From Verrucomicrobia subdivision 6 bacterium (lineage in GTDB: Bacteria > Verrucomicrobiota > Verrucomicrobiia > Methylacidiphilales > Verrucolacustridaceae), in assembly GCA_947441075.1 (NCBI GenBank), contig CANESK010000004.1:1-48946 (forward strand): a stretch of DNA of 48,946 nt. The letters run 5' to 3'. Below the pieces are notes generated by a model. That model ran no database searches. It had not been told where the DNA came from and saw only the letters and a program-made list of their open reading frames with translations. Positions 5,101-48,946 of this stretch are shown piece by piece (position 1 is the stretch's first letter; every line of letters starts with the position of its first letter). A program made the position numbers and the translations under genes.

Positions 5101-5553
5101 ATGTCATTAGCCATTAAAATCGACGACCAGATCAAAGAAGCCATGAAAGCCAAGGACGCGGACAGGCTCAGCGTTCTCCGCATGCTGAAGTCCGCCATGA
5201 AATATGCGGTCATCGAAAAGTACGGGGCCGAGGGGGTGGCCAAAGATGAGGATGTCTTGGCCAGCGTTCGTAAAGAAATCAAGAAACGGCAGGACTCCAT
5301 TGAGGCTTTCGAAAAAGGGGGCAGGCCCGAACAAGCCGCCAAAGAAAAAGCCGAAATGAAGATCCTCGAATCCTACCTTCCTGCCGCGATGCCCGAAGCC
5401 GAGCTGGAATCACTCGTCAAAGCAGTCATCGCCGAACTCGGCGCCACCGATAAAAAAGCCATGGGTGCCGTCATGAAAGCCTGCCAGACAAAAGCCGCTG
5501 GTCGTGCCGATAACCGTGCCCTCAGCGCCCTTGTGGGCAAACTCCTGCCCTAA
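5101..5553 (+). CDS. yqeY: GatB/YqeY domain protein
   Basis: 150 residues matching the stand-alone YqeY family along its length: MSLAIKIDDQIKEAMKAKD at the start, RLSVLRMLKSAMK, then the EKGGRPEQAAKEKAEMKIL stretch and the C-terminal DKKAMGAVMKA helix. The family resembles the tail domain of the GatB subunit of Glu-tRNA(Gln) amidotransferase and is thought to bind tRNA; its role is not firmly known. I chose the ATG at 5101 because family members begin at this point; a TTG at 5089 would add four residues. The stop overlaps the stop of the convergent sulfatase gene by four bases (CTAA). Confidence 0.9.
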   Translation: MSLAIKIDDQIKEAMKAKDADRLSVLRMLKSAMKYAVIEKYGAEGVAKDEDVLASVRKEIKKRQDSIEAFEKGGRPEQAAKEKAEMKILESYLPAAMPEAELESLVKAVIAELGATDKKAMGAVMKACQTKAAGRADNRALSALVGKLLP

Positions 5554-6872
5554 TTCTGCTGGCTGGGCGGTCGCTTTTTCCCACCGCCCCCAGGACCCCG
5601 TCGGTCTTTCTGGGGAATATCTTTTAGATACTCTTGGAAAGACTGCGTAAGTTCTTCAACGATCTCCGGATGCTGGCTTGAAAGATCCTTCTTCTCCGAT
5701 GGATCAGACACCACATCAAACAACATCGGCGTTACCCCTTGGCCCTGCCGGGAGGTGATTAATTTCCAAGGTGGCCGAAAAACCGCTACCTCTTTGTTTC
5801 CCATGAAAAAGATCGGACGCTCCGTGGCTTGCCCTCCATGCAAAGAAGGCCAGACGTCCTTTCCATCAAATTTCGGCACGGAGGCCATCTTCACCCCCGT
5901 GAGATCCAGAATCGTCGGAAAAAGATCCGCGACACACATGAACTGCTCGCTCTTTTGTCCAGTCGGCAGAACACTTGGCCAGTTCATCGCCGCCGGCACA
6001 TGAATTCCCCCCTCGAAGACCGTTCCCTTTCCCTCCCTCAAAGTCAGGTTGGTCGAGCCCTTGGTTACGTCCCCGCCATTGTCGGAAAAGAAAATGATCA
6101 GGGTATTTTTTCGTACCCCCTGCTCCTCCAACTCCGCCACCACTCGCCCGACCGCCGCATCCAATCCTGTCATCGCCGCCAAAAGAACAGGACGGCCGCG
6201 CATTCTCCCGTCACCCGCTTCCGCAGGAGGAGCCGCGATTGGGCCGTGAATCGCATTGAAGGCCAGATACAAAAGAAAGGGTCTGCTCTTGTCCCGCTTT
6301 TGCATCAACTTGATCGCCTCATCCGCTAAAAGATCGGTTGAATACCCCACCTCCTCAACAGGTTGGCCGTTCCGCCACCAGTCCAACTCTTGGGTTTTTG
6401 GCTTCATGTGGGTGTTATAATCTACCGCCCCACCCAACAGGCCGTAGTGATGATCGAATCCGCGATTCGTTGGCAGATACTCAGGCCCTGATAAACGATT
6501 CTCCTTCGCCCCGCCCAAGTGCCACTTTCCACACATCCAAGTTTGATACCCTGCATCATGCAGGGCCTGCGGAAGCGTCTGGTACTTTAAATCCAACCCT
6601 GAAAAGTTTTCCACCCCCGTCCTCAAGGTGTGCATCCCTGTCATCAACGCCGCCCGAGTGACACTACAAATCGGGTTTACATAAAAATGTTCTAACCGCA
6701 CCCCCTCCCCTGCCAATCGATCTAGGTTCGGCGTCTTCACCTCAGGATTATTCCAACCGATATCTCCCCAACCCTCGTCGTCCGCCACAAGAATCACTAC
6801 GTTCGGTTTTTCCGTTGCTCCCGAAACCCACCCCGCCGAAAGCATGACTGCGAGAAACGTAATTCTGATCAC
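5550..6872 (-). CDS. Secreted arylsulfatase-type sulfatase
   Basis: Alkaline-phosphatase-superfamily sulfatase, probably cutting sulfate esters from polysaccharide or glycoconjugates outside the cytoplasm. From a GTG at 6872 it has 440 residues and begins with a signal peptide (VIRITFLAVMLSAGWVSGA). The metal-binding start PNVVILVADDEGWGDIGW is clear. The modification motif is CSVTRAALMTG (Cys69), where Cys would become formylglycine; the usual Pro/Ala at +2 is Val. MCGKWHLGG and FFSDNGGD are further family motifs. The GTG overlaps the TGA of the upstream YHYH gene as GTGA, so I prefer it to the ATG at 6935, which lies inside that gene. The C-terminus (RRGPGGGGKKRPPSQQN) is Gly/Pro/basic, like the tails of its neighbours. 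Substrate unknown. Confidence 0.9.
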   Translation of the reverse strand: MIRITFLAVMLSAGWVSGATEKPNVVILVADDEGWGDIGWNNPEVKTPNLDRLAGEGVRLEHFYVNPICSVTRAALMTGMHTLRTGVENFSGLDLKYQTLPQALHDAGYQTWMCGKWHLGGAKENRLSGPEYLPTNRGFDHHYGLLGGAVDYNTHMKPKTQELDWWRNGQPVEEVGYSTDLLADEAIKLMQKRDKSRPFLLYLAFNAIHGPIAAPPAEAGDGRMRGRPVLLAAMTGLDAAVGRVVAELEEQGVRKNTLIIFFSDNGGDVTKGSTNLTLREGKGTVFEGGIHVPAAMNWPSVLPTGQKSEQFMCVADLFPTILDLTGVKMASVPKFDGKDVWPSLHGGQATERPIFFMGNKEVAVFRPPWKLITSRQGQGVTPMLFDVVSDPSEKKDLSSQHPEIVEELTQSFQEYLKDIPQKDRRGPGGGGKKRPPSQQN

Positions 6873-8248
6873 GGTTTCTCTAAAGTTGGAGAACGCGGAA
6901 ATGAAAACCCCTCTCCTCGAGAATACTTCTCCCACATCTTCATCGCGAGCGCCTTCAACTCCTCCAATGAAATCGATCCACTCCCGTCCGCATCCACCTC
7001 AGTAAAGTGCTGTTTCACAAAACCAGCCATCGAAGACCGCACCCCCGGTCCATTCGCCTCCTTCGAACTAATCTTCCCATCTCGATCCGCGTCGTAGCCG
7101 CTGAAAGTCTTGTTCACCTCCGTCATCATCTCCTCCTGACTAAGCTTGCCGTCCTGATCCCCATCCATTTCCGTTAGATGATTTTCAATCCACGGCTTCC
7201 GGGGTTGCCCATTTCCCTCTTTTTGTGACGGACCTCCCCTCTGCCTTTCATCTGGCGGAGGAGGCGGACGATCCCCGCCCTTCCTCTGTTTTCCTTTCTC
7301 ACTTGTTGATTCAGAAATCTTCCCTTCTGGACTCTTGAACGTGAAATGTACGTTTCCGTTAGAAAGTATCTCATAGTTCACCGAGCCAGTCTTGCCTACC
7401 TGCTTGTACTCCAACTGATACTTTTTCTTATCGGCCGAGATGGTAAACCCCGTAATCTTCGCTCCGGGCAAAGGCTCACCTGCCTGTCGCACAGGATTAG
7501 CACTGGGTTGCGGCTCCACTTGCCCACCACCAATCGATACCTCACCGTGAAACCCGCCGTTGATGTAGGGGTAACTTTTGCTCGCGTGGTAGTGATACTC
7601 CCCTGCCACGCTCGTGTGACCGTGAAAGGAATCAAGTCCGTTCACCGTACTGCCATCTGGTTCCGCCAACCCATAAATCGGATACCCATCCAAGGCATAC
7701 CCCAACGGCAAGCTCGGACCCAACCGCTCCGCCAAATACCAAGGAGCCACATGGTAATGGTAATCGTCCGCCCTCCCACAGTGCCCCCCATACTCATCCA
7801 ACTCCCCCGCCAGAAAAGTGTCCGTCCGCCCATCATTCTTAATCGGATTGAAAATCGGAATTCCATTCGCCGCCACCGCGATCGCCCCACGGAAAAAATT
7901 CGTCTTGGCCGACATTCCATTCGCCGCTGGCACAGGATGCAGTGGAATCGACCAAGCATTCCTCAAGTAGTAAGCCTGAGGAAGCGGCACCTGCTGTTGC
8001 CACGCCGTAATTCCCACCATCATCGGATGGTCAGGCAAACCGTCCGACCCCACATAGAGATACTTCTCATCCCAATCCAAAAGAACCGCTTCTGGAAATT
8101 TTTGAAAGGGTTCTGCCGTTTTGGGAGCGGGGCCAGCTTGCTCTGCCGACTTCTTTTTCATCGCCTGATAATCCGCATCCTCAATCATGTGGGCCGACGC
8201 GAATCCCACACCGACAAGCCACAAAAGGAAAACCAGTCGGTGCTTCAC
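6869..8248 (-). CDS. Secreted YHYH-domain protein with C-terminal EF hands
   Basis: 459 residues from a GTG at 8248. The signal peptide is MKHRLVFLLWLVGVGFASA. The core is a YHYH domain with two YHYH tetrads, at about 163-166 (GRADDYHYHVAPW) and 218-221 (AGEYHYHASKSYPY), and the ALDGYPIYG motif between them. A Pro/Gly-rich linker (DRPPPPPDERQRGGPSQKEG) leads to three EF-hand loops: DGDQDGKLSQEE, DADRDGKISSKE and DADGSGSISLEE. YHYH domains have no settled function; clustered His and Tyr suggest metal binding, which is inference. The EF hands should bind calcium outside the cell. Both ends overlap neighbours by GTGA (8245-8248 and 6869-6872), so it sits inside a tightly coupled operon between a second YHYH protein and a sulfatase. 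Confidence 0.88.
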   Translation of the reverse strand: MKHRLVFLLWLVGVGFASAHMIEDADYQAMKKKSAEQAGPAPKTAEPFQKFPEAVLLDWDEKYLYVGSDGLPDHPMMVGITAWQQQVPLPQAYYLRNAWSIPLHPVPAANGMSAKTNFFRGAIAVAANGIPIFNPIKNDGRTDTFLAGELDEYGGHCGRADDYHYHVAPWYLAERLGPSLPLGYALDGYPIYGLAEPDGSTVNGLDSFHGHTSVAGEYHYHASKSYPYINGGFHGEVSIGGGQVEPQPSANPVRQAGEPLPGAKITGFTISADKKKYQLEYKQVGKTGSVNYEILSNGNVHFTFKSPEGKISESTSEKGKQRKGGDRPPPPPDERQRGGPSQKEGNGQPRKPWIENHLTEMDGDQDGKLSQEEMMTEVNKTFSGYDADRDGKISSKEANGPGVRSSMAGFVKQHFTEVDADGSGSISLEELKALAMKMWEKYSRGEGFSFPRSPTLEKP

Positions 8249-9372
8249 TGCGGTGGCGGAGCTCCGCCACCTGGACCACCCTGATTTCTCGGTGAGGGTA
8301 AAAGTTTCGCTTCATCCGCATCGATAAACCCATCTCCGTTGGTGTCATGCTTGGCAAAGTTCGTCTTCATCGGTCCGGGAGCCTCCTCCATCGATATTTT
8401 CCCGTCCCCATCCTTGTCGAACTTCTTTATCGGATCGCCACCCTGCTTACCCACCCCGCCTTGCCCCCCTGCGCCCGCTGTCTTTCCTCCCCCTCCAGGC
8501 CCACCCCCAGGCGGCCCCCGCCGAAAACTCGCATCGGGAGTTCCTTTCAACATCCGCGGATAAAAAGGGAACTCCGCCGTGGCCACGTAAAAGTAAGTTC
8601 CTTGAGGATATTCAGAGGTCATGCCCGTTTTCCCATTCGCCTCATCCAGATCCCCTGATCCCTGCACAAATTCATAATCCGCAGTGTAGGTGCCATCATA
8701 CTTTCCACCCGGACCCGCCGTCCCACTGGGACGAGTTCCCCCTTTCAGCTGATAGCTAGATCGGTCGCCCGAATTCTGAAGATAAATAGGAAAGCCGTCC
8801 GCCGCATAGCCTAACAAACTCGACTTTCCACCCAACACCGAAACCAGCCCCGTCGGTATCCCGTGGTAATGGTAGGCCCCGTTCGGCTGTACGTGCGCAT
8901 GATTCTGATCCAGCCCCAGACTCTTACCTCCCCCGATCGCCTCAATATGCCAAATCGAGCTGTGATCGTTTTTCCAATACTCCGCCGTCCCAGGATCGAA
9001 AGGGACCCCGTTCACCGCCACCCCAATCGACTGCTGCTTCAACTGCGTAAAAGTGGCATTAGTTTTAGGATGGAGTGGCATCCTTAAACTATAACTCTGC
9101 GCCGAAGCCGCATTCGGACACCCAGGCCCTGGGAATTGCCCTATTTCGTGGTTCGGCACCCCGTTCGCCTTGATCACTCGATATCCCCCCTCCTCCGTTA
9201 TCGATACCTGCGGGGTAGGCAAACCCGCGGAACTACCCGCGGCAGTTTCCGTATCTCCCTCATGCCCAGGGTGGGCTCGCCCCTCCGAACTCACCGCAAA
9301 AATCAATCCCCCACAAAGCAACAGAACTAGATCCAACTTCTTTAGCAAAAGAATACGCACCTCTTTGTTCAC
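8245..9372 (-). CDS. Secreted YHYH-domain protein with EF hands and Gly/Pro-rich tail
   Basis: 375 residues from a GTG at 9372 with a good GAGGAAGA Shine-Dalgarno. A hydrophobic N-terminal segment (LDLVLLLCGGLIFAVSS) acts as signal peptide. The YHYH domain carries GLDQNHAHVQPNGAYHYHG (tetrad at 167-170) and LLGYAADGFPIY. After a Gly-rich stretch (PPGGGPGGGGKTAGAGGQGG) come two EF hands, DKDGDGKISMEE and DTNGDGFIDADE, and a GGPGGGAPPPQ tail. It is a distant paralogue of the next gene, with one YHYH tetrad rather than two and two EF hands rather than three. It begins 13 bases after the stop of the PEP-CTERM protease gene and ends in a GTGA overlap. Function unknown; extracellular calcium or metal binding is the plausible role. 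Confidence 0.87.
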   Translation of the reverse strand: MNKEVRILLLKKLDLVLLLCGGLIFAVSSEGRAHPGHEGDTETAAGSSAGLPTPQVSITEEGGYRVIKANGVPNHEIGQFPGPGCPNAASAQSYSLRMPLHPKTNATFTQLKQQSIGVAVNGVPFDPGTAEYWKNDHSSIWHIEAIGGGKSLGLDQNHAHVQPNGAYHYHGIPTGLVSVLGGKSSLLGYAADGFPIYLQNSGDRSSYQLKGGTRPSGTAGPGGKYDGTYTADYEFVQGSGDLDEANGKTGMTSEYPQGTYFYVATAEFPFYPRMLKGTPDASFRRGPPGGGPGGGGKTAGAGGQGGVGKQGGDPIKKFDKDGDGKISMEEAPGPMKTNFAKHDTNGDGFIDADEAKLLPSPRNQGGPGGGAPPPQ

Positions 9373-9385
9373 TCTTCCTCGAATC

Positions 9386-10363
9386 CTACTTCCTTCGCCG
9401 AACGATGGCCAACCCAGAAAGCCCTAGCAACAAAAGCGAAAGTCCGGAAGGCTCTGGCACTCCCGTCACCTCATAAATCCAGTTTCCAAAACTTTGTACC
9501 GATACCACCCCAGCCAAATCCCCGTAATCCCCATTCGGCCCCGTTGTGTCCAGGGGATCAGGCAACGAGGCCAAAAACGAGTGCACTCCCACTAATTTGG
9601 TCACTCCCCCTACATCAATAAAAAGCCCACCTCCGCTATCCCCACTGCCAATCAAATACTCCAAGGCCACTGGCACGGTCAAGCCCATGGAACTCAAAAC
9701 CGATTCCGCGGGCTTATCAAAATCGTAAAAGAGCACCGTGGGAGAAATTCCATCCAGATCGAGCAAGCTACCATCCCCCATCCTCGTCGACATTCCCCCT
9801 TGGGCATCAATCAAATTTTGCCCTGCTCGCTTCGTCCCAGGATTAGTGTTCATCCCCGTCAAACCTGTTCCGCTCCTCCCATACCCCACACTCGTTCCCA
9901 GTTGTTCTAGCAGCGAAGTGCTAAAATCCATCTGCGCAGGCGTCACATTCGTAATCGGCTGACTCAAATGCACCAGCCCCAAATCCACCCCCGACCACAA
10001 ATCCCCCCCACTACTACTCCAACCTCCATACGGAATCCACTCCGTCGCAGAAATTCCAATCCCACTGTACGTCGGTCCCATCCCAAAGATCATCCCGCTC
10101 ACCCCCGCCCCGTAATCATCAGTCCCCCCCACCACATGACCCGCCGTCAGCACCCAATCAGGCGCAATCAAAGTCCCCGAAGCGATGTACCCACTCGAGC
10201 CAATACTCCAGGTCAGAAAACCCACGCTGTCGTAGACACTTTGCTGGGCCAGCGAAGTGTAAAAAGAATCCGCCACATCATTCCGGATCGTCCCCGCCTG
10301 GCTCACCTGCAGAGTGCCACTCAAAAAACAAACCACCCCTGTGTAAATAAGATGAATCCTCAC
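9386..10363 (-). CDS. Secreted trypsin-like serine protease with PEP-CTERM anchor
   Basis: 325 residues from a GTG at 10363, with AGG five bases upstream. A signal peptide (IYTGVVCFLSGTLQVSQAG) precedes a chymotrypsin-fold domain whose catalytic triad is visible: His76 in LTAGHVV, Asp127 in GVDLGLVHL, Ser243 in GSGDSGGGLF. The C-terminus is a textbook PEP-CTERM signal: VPEP, a hydrophobic helix, then RRRK. Such proteins are cut and transferred by an exosortase to the cell surface or matrix; no exosortase is in this window. A strong promoter lies just upstream (10372-10400), and the YHYH gene follows after 13 bases, so this is probably the first gene of a four-gene operon. Target proteins are unknown. 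Confidence 0.92.
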   Translation of the reverse strand: MRIHLIYTGVVCFLSGTLQVSQAGTIRNDVADSFYTSLAQQSVYDSVGFLTWSIGSSGYIASGTLIAPDWVLTAGHVVGGTDDYGAGVSGMIFGMGPTYSGIGISATEWIPYGGWSSSGGDLWSGVDLGLVHLSQPITNVTPAQMDFSTSLLEQLGTSVGYGRSGTGLTGMNTNPGTKRAGQNLIDAQGGMSTRMGDGSLLDLDGISPTVLFYDFDKPAESVLSSMGLTVPVALEYLIGSGDSGGGLFIDVGGVTKLVGVHSFLASLPDPLDTTGPNGDYGDLAGVVSVQSFGNWIYEVTGVPEPSGLSLLLLGLSGLAIVRRRK

Positions 10364-10371
10364 TAATACCT

Positions 10372-10400
10372 ATTCTAGTCGCCCCTCTTTCATTTATCAA
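10372..10400 (-). promoter_or_regulatory. Sigma-70-like promoter of the protease/YHYH/sulfatase operon
   Basis: Read on the minus strand: TTGATA (10400-10395), a 17-base spacer, TAGAAT (10377-10372). Both boxes match consensus at five of six positions and spacing is optimal. Only eight bases (AGGTATTA) separate the -10 box from the GTG start at 10363, so the transcript would be leaderless or nearly so. It is the best promoter match I see in the window. Confidence 0.6.
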
Positions 10401-47433: not shown

Positions 47434-48946
47434 TCAATACGTCACTGCGTTCCCCATACCCGCATTGATCCCCGTGGCTTGAGGGCTCTCCACCTGTAAC
47501 CGTAAGAACCCAGTCATTCCCGAGGAGTTGATCCGCAGAGTGACTCTCTCTCTTCCATTCCCCAGCGGGGTCACCGTTGTCCCTGAGACCGAAGCATCCC
47601 CCCATGCATTAGTGACGGACGAAACCTGTTCCACCCGATAGGTGAACCCCTCGACGAAATATTGCGCTCCGCTATTCACCCCACCCGTCGGGCGTTCATA
47701 GCTGTAAATCATCTCCACTCCCGTAGACACAGAGAGGGCTTGGATTCCGGTGCTTGCGCTGTAACTGACGCTTTCGACCCCGTCCAAACTCGGATTTGCC
47801 AAATTGACCGCCTTGGCCAAATCCGCCGCTGTCACCACAGCCCGAACGGTCGCCTGAAGAACCTGCCCCCCTCCAACTTTGTCCACAATCTCGCTTTCGA
47901 CCAAATAACCCGACTGATTGAAAACCAACTGGTATCCCGTCTCCAACACGATCCCGCTTTTTGCCCAGATCAAGTCAAACGTCTGCGTGCTGCCGTACAC
48001 CGGACCCGTATAGGTGCCCACGAACATCAGGTTCACAATTCCATTTAGGGTTGCCGCTCCATTCCCGACAAAGATCTGGTCGTATAGAGTCTCTGTTGTT
48101 CCGGCCAAGTCCATCGTCAGATTGTCCAGCGTCAGATTCTGTCCTTCGTAAAAATAATCACCCACCACCTGTTCAGGATCCGGACCGTTCCCCGATTGCC
48201 CCATATCGTTTCTCCCGCCAAACACCACTCCCTGCGCTCCCACCGCCAAACTGCTGTACCCACCTGCCGATACATTCGAAACATTTTTGCAAATCGGCGA
48301 TGGCGTCGGGCCGTAGACCGCAGGGGAACTGATGGGGCTGGCGTATCCAAGGAGCAGTTCCCCGTACGAATTATACCCCCAGCTGTAAAGTTGTCCCGAT
48401 TCGGTGATGGCAAACGAGCTGTCCGTTCCTGCGGAAATCGACCGGATTCGGCTCAATCCAGAGATCGGTGTCGGCACCTTGGCATACATCGTGCCTGAGA
48501 TCTGACCGGCCTGCCCGTAATCATTGCTTCCAAATCCAAGTACGGATCCATCGGTCTTTAGAATCAGCGAATGATTAAAACCGGCCGCTACAGCCTTCGC
48601 CATTACACCTCCAAGTTTTGAAGGAGTCCTCTCGGATGCCGGCCGGGTGCCTTTCCCAAGCTGGCCGTAATAATTCCTCCCCCACACCCACACTCCGCCA
48701 TTTTCATCCAGAGCCAGATTGTGATCTGCCCCCGCAGCCACGGAAACAATTCGGTTGGTCAGACCTTGGAAATGGACTTTCAACCATATTGCCGAGTTAA
48801 CCGGCGAATTGGATTGCCCCAGCTGACCATACGTATTGTCCCCACAGGCATAAACTTCGCCTAACTCCGTGATGACCAGGCTGTGATTCCCTCCTGCCGA
48901 AACGGCAACTACAGGGTTGGAAGGGGATCCAAACACATTCGTGAAA
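47434..48946 (-). CDS. RCC1-repeat surface protein, 5' truncated by window edge
   Basis: 504 codons are visible with no start before the window edge; a GTG at 48936 is internal. At least five RCC1 blades occur in the visible N-terminal half: VSAGGNHSLVITELGEVYACG, VAAGADHNLALDENGGVWVWG, VAAGFNHSLILKTDGSVLGFG, ISAGTDSSFAITESGQLYSWG and VSAGGYSSLAVG (each given to its first residues). Each has the A-G-x-x-H-[SN] and W-G/GxN-x-YGQLG pattern. The C-terminal ~260 residues are Ser/Thr/Val/Gly-rich beta structure with no recognised domain and no PEP-CTERM or LPXTG end. Such long RCC1 proteins in Verrucomicrobiota are usually secreted, by analogy; the signal peptide is out of view. Confidence 0.8.
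   Translation of the reverse strand, partial: FTNVFGSPSNPVVAVSAGGNHSLVITELGEVYACGDNTYGQLGQSNSPVNSAIWLKVHFQGLTNRIVSVAAGADHNLALDENGGVWVWGRNYYGQLGKGTRPASERTPSKLGGVMAKAVAAGFNHSLILKTDGSVLGFGSNDYGQAGQISGTMYAKVPTPISGLSRIRSISAGTDSSFAITESGQLYSWGYNSYGELLLGYASPISSPAVYGPTPSPICKNVSNVSAGGYSSLAVGAQGVVFGGRNDMGQSGNGPDPEQVVGDYFYEGQNLTLDNLTMDLAGTTETLYDQIFVGNGAATLNGIVNLMFVGTYTGPVYGSTQTFDLIWAKSGIVLETGYQLVFNQSGYLVESEIVDKVGGGQVLQATVRAVVTAADLAKAVNLANPSLDGVESVSYSASTGIQALSVSTGVEMIYSYERPTGGVNSGAQYFVEGFTYRVEQVSSVTNAWGDASVSGTTVTPLGNGRERVTLRINSSGMTGFLRLQVESPQATGINAGMGNAVTY

Follow-up and report, generated by a model that had tools for sequence, protein, structure and literature searches.

Organization of the Locus

The window, by which we mean the whole 48,946-nucleotide stretch of DNA analysed here, belongs to a 1.7 Mb assembly of a Verrucomicrobia subdivision 6 bacterium, and congeneric genomes go by names such as "Verrucomicrobia subdivision 6 bacterium BACL9." The LD19 freshwater 16S rRNA is found in BACL9 (PMC4699468), and the host is a lake and brackish-water bacterium of the LD19/BACL9 genus of Verrucomicrobia. 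Four genes on the minus strand, all verified in the window, follow one another in the order protease, YHYH1, YHYH2 and sulfatase. The features of the locus are as follows:

10372..10400, minus strand: TTGATA-17-TAGAAT, a promoter-like site preceding the protease gene, not better than shuffles
9386..10363, minus strand: PEP-CTERM trypsin-like protease (PF00089, E=2.1e-9; PEP-CTERM, E=3.3e-5), a neighbour through rearrangement, outside the core
9373..9385, no strand: 13-base junction of protease and YHYH1, with a rearrangement breakpoint at or near it
8245..9372, minus strand: YHYH1, secreted YHYH protein of 375 aa with two EF hands (PF14240, E=1.3e-59)
8542..9087, minus strand: PF14240 core of YHYH1
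6869..8248, minus strand: YHYH2, secreted YHYH protein of 459 aa with C-terminal EF hands (PF14240, E=2.2e-15; EF-hand, E=2.4e-13)
7475..8113, minus strand: core domain of YHYH2 (residues 46-258), with two YHYH motifs
6935..7183, minus strand: EF-hand tail of YHYH2 (residues ~356-438)
5550..6872, minus strand: S1-type sulfatase of 440 aa with a signal peptide and a Gly/Pro/Lys tail (PF00884, E=1.1e-56)
6654..6668, minus strand: sulfatase catalytic motif C-S-V-T-R (residues 69-73), Val replacing the consensus Pro

The genes are separated by 13 bases, then joined by a GTGA overlap and by a further GTGA overlap, and N-terminal signal peptides were recognized by eye in all four proteins. The sulfatase starts at the GTG at 6872, overlapping YHYH2; the start in the list of open reading frames (6935) falls within YHYH2. 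An earlier reading of these letters alone (the sequence-only reading) had described four co-directional secreted genes with these spacings, and the coordinates, Pfam matches and signal peptides bear it out. It had also set them behind a "single good promoter." The site is indeed present at 10400-10372, but shuffled sequence contains sites this good at least as often (2 observed against 2.9 expected), and it argues only weakly for a promoter. Every gene compared is under purifying selection (dN/dS 0.04-0.20). Gene calls throughout are mechanical, and many loci reach contig ends.

A Rearrangement Brought the Protease to the Locus

The sequence-only reading had cast the protease as a member of the cassette and a possible maturase, a role that synteny across the genus led us to reject. 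Among the 21 genus genomes compared (the window genome being G000), the protease adjoins YHYH1 in only the five that make up one subclade (G000, G054, G056, G058, and G061), and its place beside the YHYH genes is not kept outside them. Its orthologue in G042 and G043 (72-74% identity) is divergent from TyrRS on a contig separate from the YHYH genes, and in the window the protease is likewise divergent from TyrRS. The upstream neighbour of YHYH1 in all other genus genomes with a readable upstream side is a SOUL heme-binding gene, which in most cases follows an HD-domain gene. In the window genome this SOUL gene lies on contig C5, where it keeps its old upstream neighbours in their old order and YHYH1 is missing from its downstream side. 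The ancestral order in the genus was SOUL-YHYH1-YHYH2-sulfatase-yqeY, and the old neighbour of the protease was TyrRS. Given the TyrRS neighbour, the ancestral SOUL-YHYH1 pair and the SOUL gene stranded on C5, we conclude that a TyrRS-protease block was joined to YHYH1 by rearrangement. The protease-YHYH link is thus the product of a rearrangement in the window's subclade that can be traced at both ends. Any joint transcription of protease and YHYH1 is recent; in function the protease does not belong to the cassette, and a shared transcript is all that it may now have in common with it. Outside the genus, no protease was found next to YHYH2 in the far loci. The protease does carry a C-terminal PEP-CTERM motif, and the genome an exosortase, as in the known PEP-CTERM/exosortase system, but this likeness concerns the protease alone, which lies outside the core.

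Conservation of the Core Within the Genus

The remaining genes have a different history. YHYH1, YHYH2, the sulfatase, yqeY, GT39 and lptG are retained together at a single chromosomal place in the genus, where YHYH2 and the sulfatase conserve both their common direction and their 4-base overlap. The sequence-only reading had allowed that the cassette would be a local accident if the YHYH genes persisted in relatives with neither sulfatase nor protease and in no fixed order; this describes the protease, whereas the sulfatase has stayed. Losses from the core are nested: G042 lacks the sulfatase, while G044 and G049 lack both the sulfatase and the YHYH2 core, the EF-hand tail of YHYH2 being fused in frame to YHYH1. 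In G057, YHYH1 is broken. No sulfatase orthologue was seen in the genus where YHYH2 is visibly absent, with G060 and G046 cut by contig ends. That G042 retains YHYH1 and YHYH2 without the sulfatase counts against a YHYH2-sulfatase module. The proposal that YHYH1 and YHYH2 belong together is true inside this genus and fails outside it; YHYH1 is a genus-specific companion.

The YHYH Domains

YHYH proteins, a family that has received little study, are known from bacteria, diatoms and the tails of phages; to our knowledge no activity has been assigned to them and no structure solved. The two proteins of the window score 201.8 and 57.6 bits against PF14240, well above the curated cut-off of 25, and share with that family the core D-x4-H...H-x-H and a downstream D, which are common to YHYH1 and YHYH2. 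They are distant paralogues, as the sequence-only reading had supposed: BLASTP aligns them at 32% over 151 aa (E=6e-10), and profile-profile comparison gives a probability of 99.7%. The YHYH2 type differs from the PF14240 profile in aligning only to about position 110, and linkage to sulfatases is a property of this type. Both proteins had been read as calcium-binding EF-hand proteins; the EF loops are there (two in YHYH1, about three EF-type in YHYH2) and would bind calcium. Lanmodulin-like lanthanide binding was considered and rejected, the NCBIfam model NF053806 scoring 20.0 and 32.7 bits against 135, and only EF hands being recognized.

An alignment of 71 YHYH2 domains averages 73% identity per column, and 47 of its columns are invariant, among them H29, E104, D106, H111, D116, D117, H119, H121, D142, and D161. 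A His triad with an Asp is invariant in both types (H111/H119/H121 with D142 in the 71 YHYH2 domains, H116/H124/H126 with D148 in 27 YHYH1 domains), and a second YHYH motif (H166, H174, H176) is present in YHYH2 and missing from YHYH1. Such extreme conservation fits an enzyme, but would also fit a structural metal site. Many mature YHYH proteins of both types start with a His-rich AH[PED]GH-type motif; it is not universal, and we keep the idea of a histidine brace built on the N-terminal His as a lead only.

AlphaFold folds both proteins with confidence, at a pLDDT of 92.6 (YHYH2) and 90.7 (YHYH1). Foldseek found no match for either in the PDB at E<=0.001, and its significant matches among viral models (BFVD), with E down to 1.1e-8, are exclusively YHYH or unnamed proteins. 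The YHYH domain has been treated in at least three papers (PMC7824862, PMC11992049, PMC7029224). That of phage tail proteins is predicted to be a Zn-dependent hydrolase, with a conserved His triad and Asp as the predicted Zn site (PMC7824862), and lies beside lectin domains (PMC7824862, PMC7029224). The tail proteins of jumbo phages and cyanophages share the fold of ours, by Foldseek, and the conserved His and Asp residues; they differ in being fused to tail or lectin domains, with a proposed action on peptidoglycan (PMC7824862), whereas the YHYH proteins of the window are secreted by the cell and tied to a sulfatase.

Linkage of YHYH2 to Sulfatases Outside the Genus

To follow the pairing further, we scored 89 distinct YHYH2 loci of Planctomycetota, Verrucomicrobiota and Acidobacteriota, near-copies removed. 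Scanning GTDB genomes with an alignment of YHYH2 supplied the best 80 of 510 relatives, ranked by similarity to the genus, and a PF14240 search supplied 22 further Verrucomicrobiota loci unselected by similarity to the window. A sulfatase is the adjacent gene on the same strand in 30/89 loci and is fused to YHYH2 in 5/89, fractions that are not population estimates since the 80 far loci were picked by their likeness to the genus. The fusions (L086, L087, L088, L107, and L141) were counted with a profile built from the sulfatase region only; in three of them, L086, L087, and L141, the YHYH domain comes first, followed by the EF hands and then the sulfatase. A metallophosphoesterase adjoins YHYH2 in 11/89 loci and is fused to it in 3/89 (L083, L108, and L143); the place of the ester hydrolase beside YHYH2 can be filled by a metallophosphoesterase instead. 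Taken together, an adjacent or fused sulfatase or metallophosphoesterase accompanies 44/89 YHYH2 loci, as against 1/16 YHYH1-type loci (p=9e-4).

Sulfatases occupy 34/172 positions at one gene from YHYH2, but only 14/444 at a distance of four to seven genes (odds ratio 7.6, p=1.3e-10), and 16/34 of the sulfatase-YHYH2 junctions are 4-base overlaps. In the sample restricted to Verrucomicrobiota and not chosen by similarity to the window, linkage within two genes holds for 15/22 loci, compared with 2/16. The YHYH2-sulfatase link, which the sequence-only reading had put forward from the single locus, is real and wide: conserved in the genus, it is met again in several bacterial phyla, both between neighbouring genes and within fused ones. 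Neither a sulfatase nor a phosphoesterase is linked to YHYH2 in about half of its loci, which counts against the module, and elsewhere YHYH2 is fused to PEBP, to Lcl_C/Ig and to a 240-aa domain without a name, which may point to a wider role. Also recurrent in YHYH2 loci are a protein of ~244 aa without a Pfam match (fused in L078), an ECF sigma factor and a partner of ~340 aa.

The Sulfatase

The sulfatase of the window (P0004) is an S1 sulfatase by its PF00884 score (192.8 bits against a cut-off of 25) and aligns over its full length to carrageenan sulfatases, the closest solved structures (E=7e-63). Like the carrageenan and GalNAc-4-sulfatase groups of S1 enzymes (PDB 6bia, 6prm, 1fsu), it has the catalytic Cys and Arg and the DD and DNGG metal-site motifs; unlike them, it reads CSVTR rather than CxPxR, Val standing for Pro, is ~35-40% identical and has YHYH2 as a partner. 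CSVTR is conserved in the lineage. It is present in the genus and in two further sulfatases, the planctomycete L087 (55% identity) and L166 (41%), each beside YHYH2, with that of L166 fused to a metallophosphoesterase domain. In a quick tree, these and the genus enzymes form one supported lineage. None of the 15 closest Verrucomicrobiota homologues of the window enzyme outside the genus (L190-L204) has YHYH2 nearby, and their readable motifs are CSPTR, CTPTR or CNPSR. Two further supported sulfatase lineages are YHYH2-linked, one of them containing the fused sulfatase domains (14/15 rows linked), and linkage to YHYH2 requires 17 changes on the tree compared with 32.8 in shuffles. With at least three YHYH2-linked lineages, sulfatases have been recruited more than once. 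Formylglycine maturation may be provided from elsewhere in the genome, where an FGE (PF03781, 247 bits, G000:C72) with a C-x4-C copper motif lies outside the locus and looks like an exported lipoprotein. The cassette resembles polysaccharide utilisation loci in placing a secreted sulfatase within a co-directional gene set, but has no glycoside hydrolase or lyase of known family.

Proposed Function and Alternative Explanations

It is very probable that YHYH2 and the sulfatase act in one module. Most likely, YHYH2 would be a secreted metal-dependent enzyme or binder that joins the sulfatase in acting on a single sulfated polymer. The invariant Asp and His residues would form its metal site, the EF hands would bind calcium, and YHYH2 would cut or bind a sulfated (or phosphorylated) polymer, from which the sulfatase (or phosphoesterase), the former matured to formylglycine by the exported FGE, would strip the acidic group. 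For this combined picture of one extracellular module, in which YHYH2 cuts or binds the polymer, we see even chances, and that YHYH2 is itself an enzyme we rate somewhat below that. More tentatively still, YHYH2 could be a new-fold metal-dependent extracellular enzyme attacking sulfated or phosphorylated polymer. Its dedicated sulfatases, the metallophosphoesterases and a jelly-roll-like helper would then make up with it a polymer-processing system not yet described from Planctomycetota, Verrucomicrobiota and Acidobacteriota, with the CSVTR sulfatases as a specialised branch.

Several other explanations must be weighed against this. YHYH2 might be a non-catalytic, Ca- or Zn-dependent binding or anchoring module that docks the sulfatase or phosphoesterase onto glycans or the cell surface, much like a carbohydrate-binding module. 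Its fusion to several different catalytic domains, with partners exchanged, its EF hands and the lectin domains beside phage-tail YHYH (PMC7824862, PMC7029224) would all suit such a role; however, the identity and the number of invariant columns across phyla exceed what is usual for binding modules, and the invariant D/H/E cluster likewise speaks against it, leaving this reading rather unlikely. We give still less weight to a metal-handling partner, one that supplies or guards metal for secreted hydrolases (calcium for sulfatases, calcium and iron for PhoD-like phosphoesterases) or aids copper-dependent FGE maturation outside the cell. Sulfatases and metallophosphoesterases both need divalent metals, the FGE here looks exported and many mature YHYH N-termini bear the His-rich motif, all of which lend it some appeal, yet that motif is missing from many planctomycete YHYH2 proteins, the FGE lies outside the locus and no chaperone-like fold was matched.

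Two further explanations are very improbable. The view first suggested, in which all four genes form a single functional cassette and the protease serves as maturase, draws on their common direction and tight spacing, the protease position kept in five genomes and the exosortase, and is largely refuted as an ancestral unit by the TyrRS-linked protease far from YHYH in G042 and G043, the SOUL gene as ancestral neighbour of YHYH1, the rearrangement traced at both ends and the far loci, where no protease adjoins YHYH2. Sulfatases are numerous in Planctomycetota and Verrucomicrobiota, and adjacency to YHYH2 could in principle be a by-product of this abundance. The 7.6-fold enrichment at one gene's distance within the same neighbourhoods and the YHYH1 control loci, which stay at background, led us to reject such chance adjacency; the shared strand, 4-base overlaps and true fusions point the same way, as does a window genome with only 5 sulfatase matches.

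Significance

In the literature searched, which leaves out most subscription journals, we found no report connecting YHYH with sulfatases, in keeping with the sequence-only reading, to which no such link was known, nor any experimental work on a YHYH protein. Planctomycetota and Verrucomicrobiota are rich in sulfatases, though the partners that set their targets are often unknown. The pairing with YHYH2, natural fusions included, indicates where the function of YHYH should be sought, and the fused proteins, the divergent catalytic motif and the planctomycete operons provide a ready test set for it.

Variation of the cassette within the genus

The ancestral gene upstream of YHYH1 in the genus is a SOUL heme-binding gene (L031:6834-7379, in the same locus as the YHYH2 gene of the relative G042, and its equivalents). 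In two loci, YHYH1 carries YHYH2's EF-hand tail as an in-frame fusion (L041:7803-9335; L043:2556-4025), with neither the YHYH2 core nor the sulfatase present. In several relatives, a PIN-domain gene has been inserted between yqeY and the sulfatase, or the sulfatase's former place (L034:11805-12245; L044:8071-8511); the window has no PIN-domain gene at its sulfatase-yqeY junction. Compared with their window counterparts, G042 YHYH2 (L031:8561-9943) is the closer (88%, dS 0.92) and G042 YHYH1 the more distant (78%, dS 1.8), a disparity that may point to intra-genus recombination affecting YHYH2.

Elsewhere in the window, its end (47434-48936) encodes a 500-aa RCC1-repeat protein.

Fusions and recurring partners outside the genus

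Fusion of YHYH2 to a phosphatidylethanolamine-binding (PEBP/YbhB) domain (L103:9623-11395, L123:9761-11512, L159:4843-7287) is common in planctomycetes. A secreted protein of approximately 244 aa adjoins YHYH2 in 21 loci (e.g., L106:1951-2682, L148:4964-5707) and is fused with it in L078:5500-7518; it has no Pfam match and, judged by eye, looks like a jelly-roll sugar-binding domain. Lcl_C and Ig-like domains are joined to YHYH2 in L165:5042-8698 and L166:7154-10807, and the neighboring gene in L166 is itself a sulfatase-Ig-metallophosphoesterase fusion.

Putative metal sites and sulfatase maturation

In many YHYH1 and YHYH2 proteins, including those of many far loci, a His-rich AH[PED]GH or AH motif directly behind the signal peptide forms the mature N-terminus, which suggests an extra metal site. 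The relevant features are:

9290-9260, minus strand, His-rich mature N-terminus of YHYH1
8195-8180, minus strand, His-rich mature N-terminus of YHYH2
G000:C72:258-1220 (L173), formylglycine-generating enzyme of the window's genome

This enzyme carries an N-terminal signal peptide with a lipobox (VSGVGCQ) and retains the C-x4-C copper pair, and on these sequence features sulfatases may be matured outside the cytoplasm in this organism.
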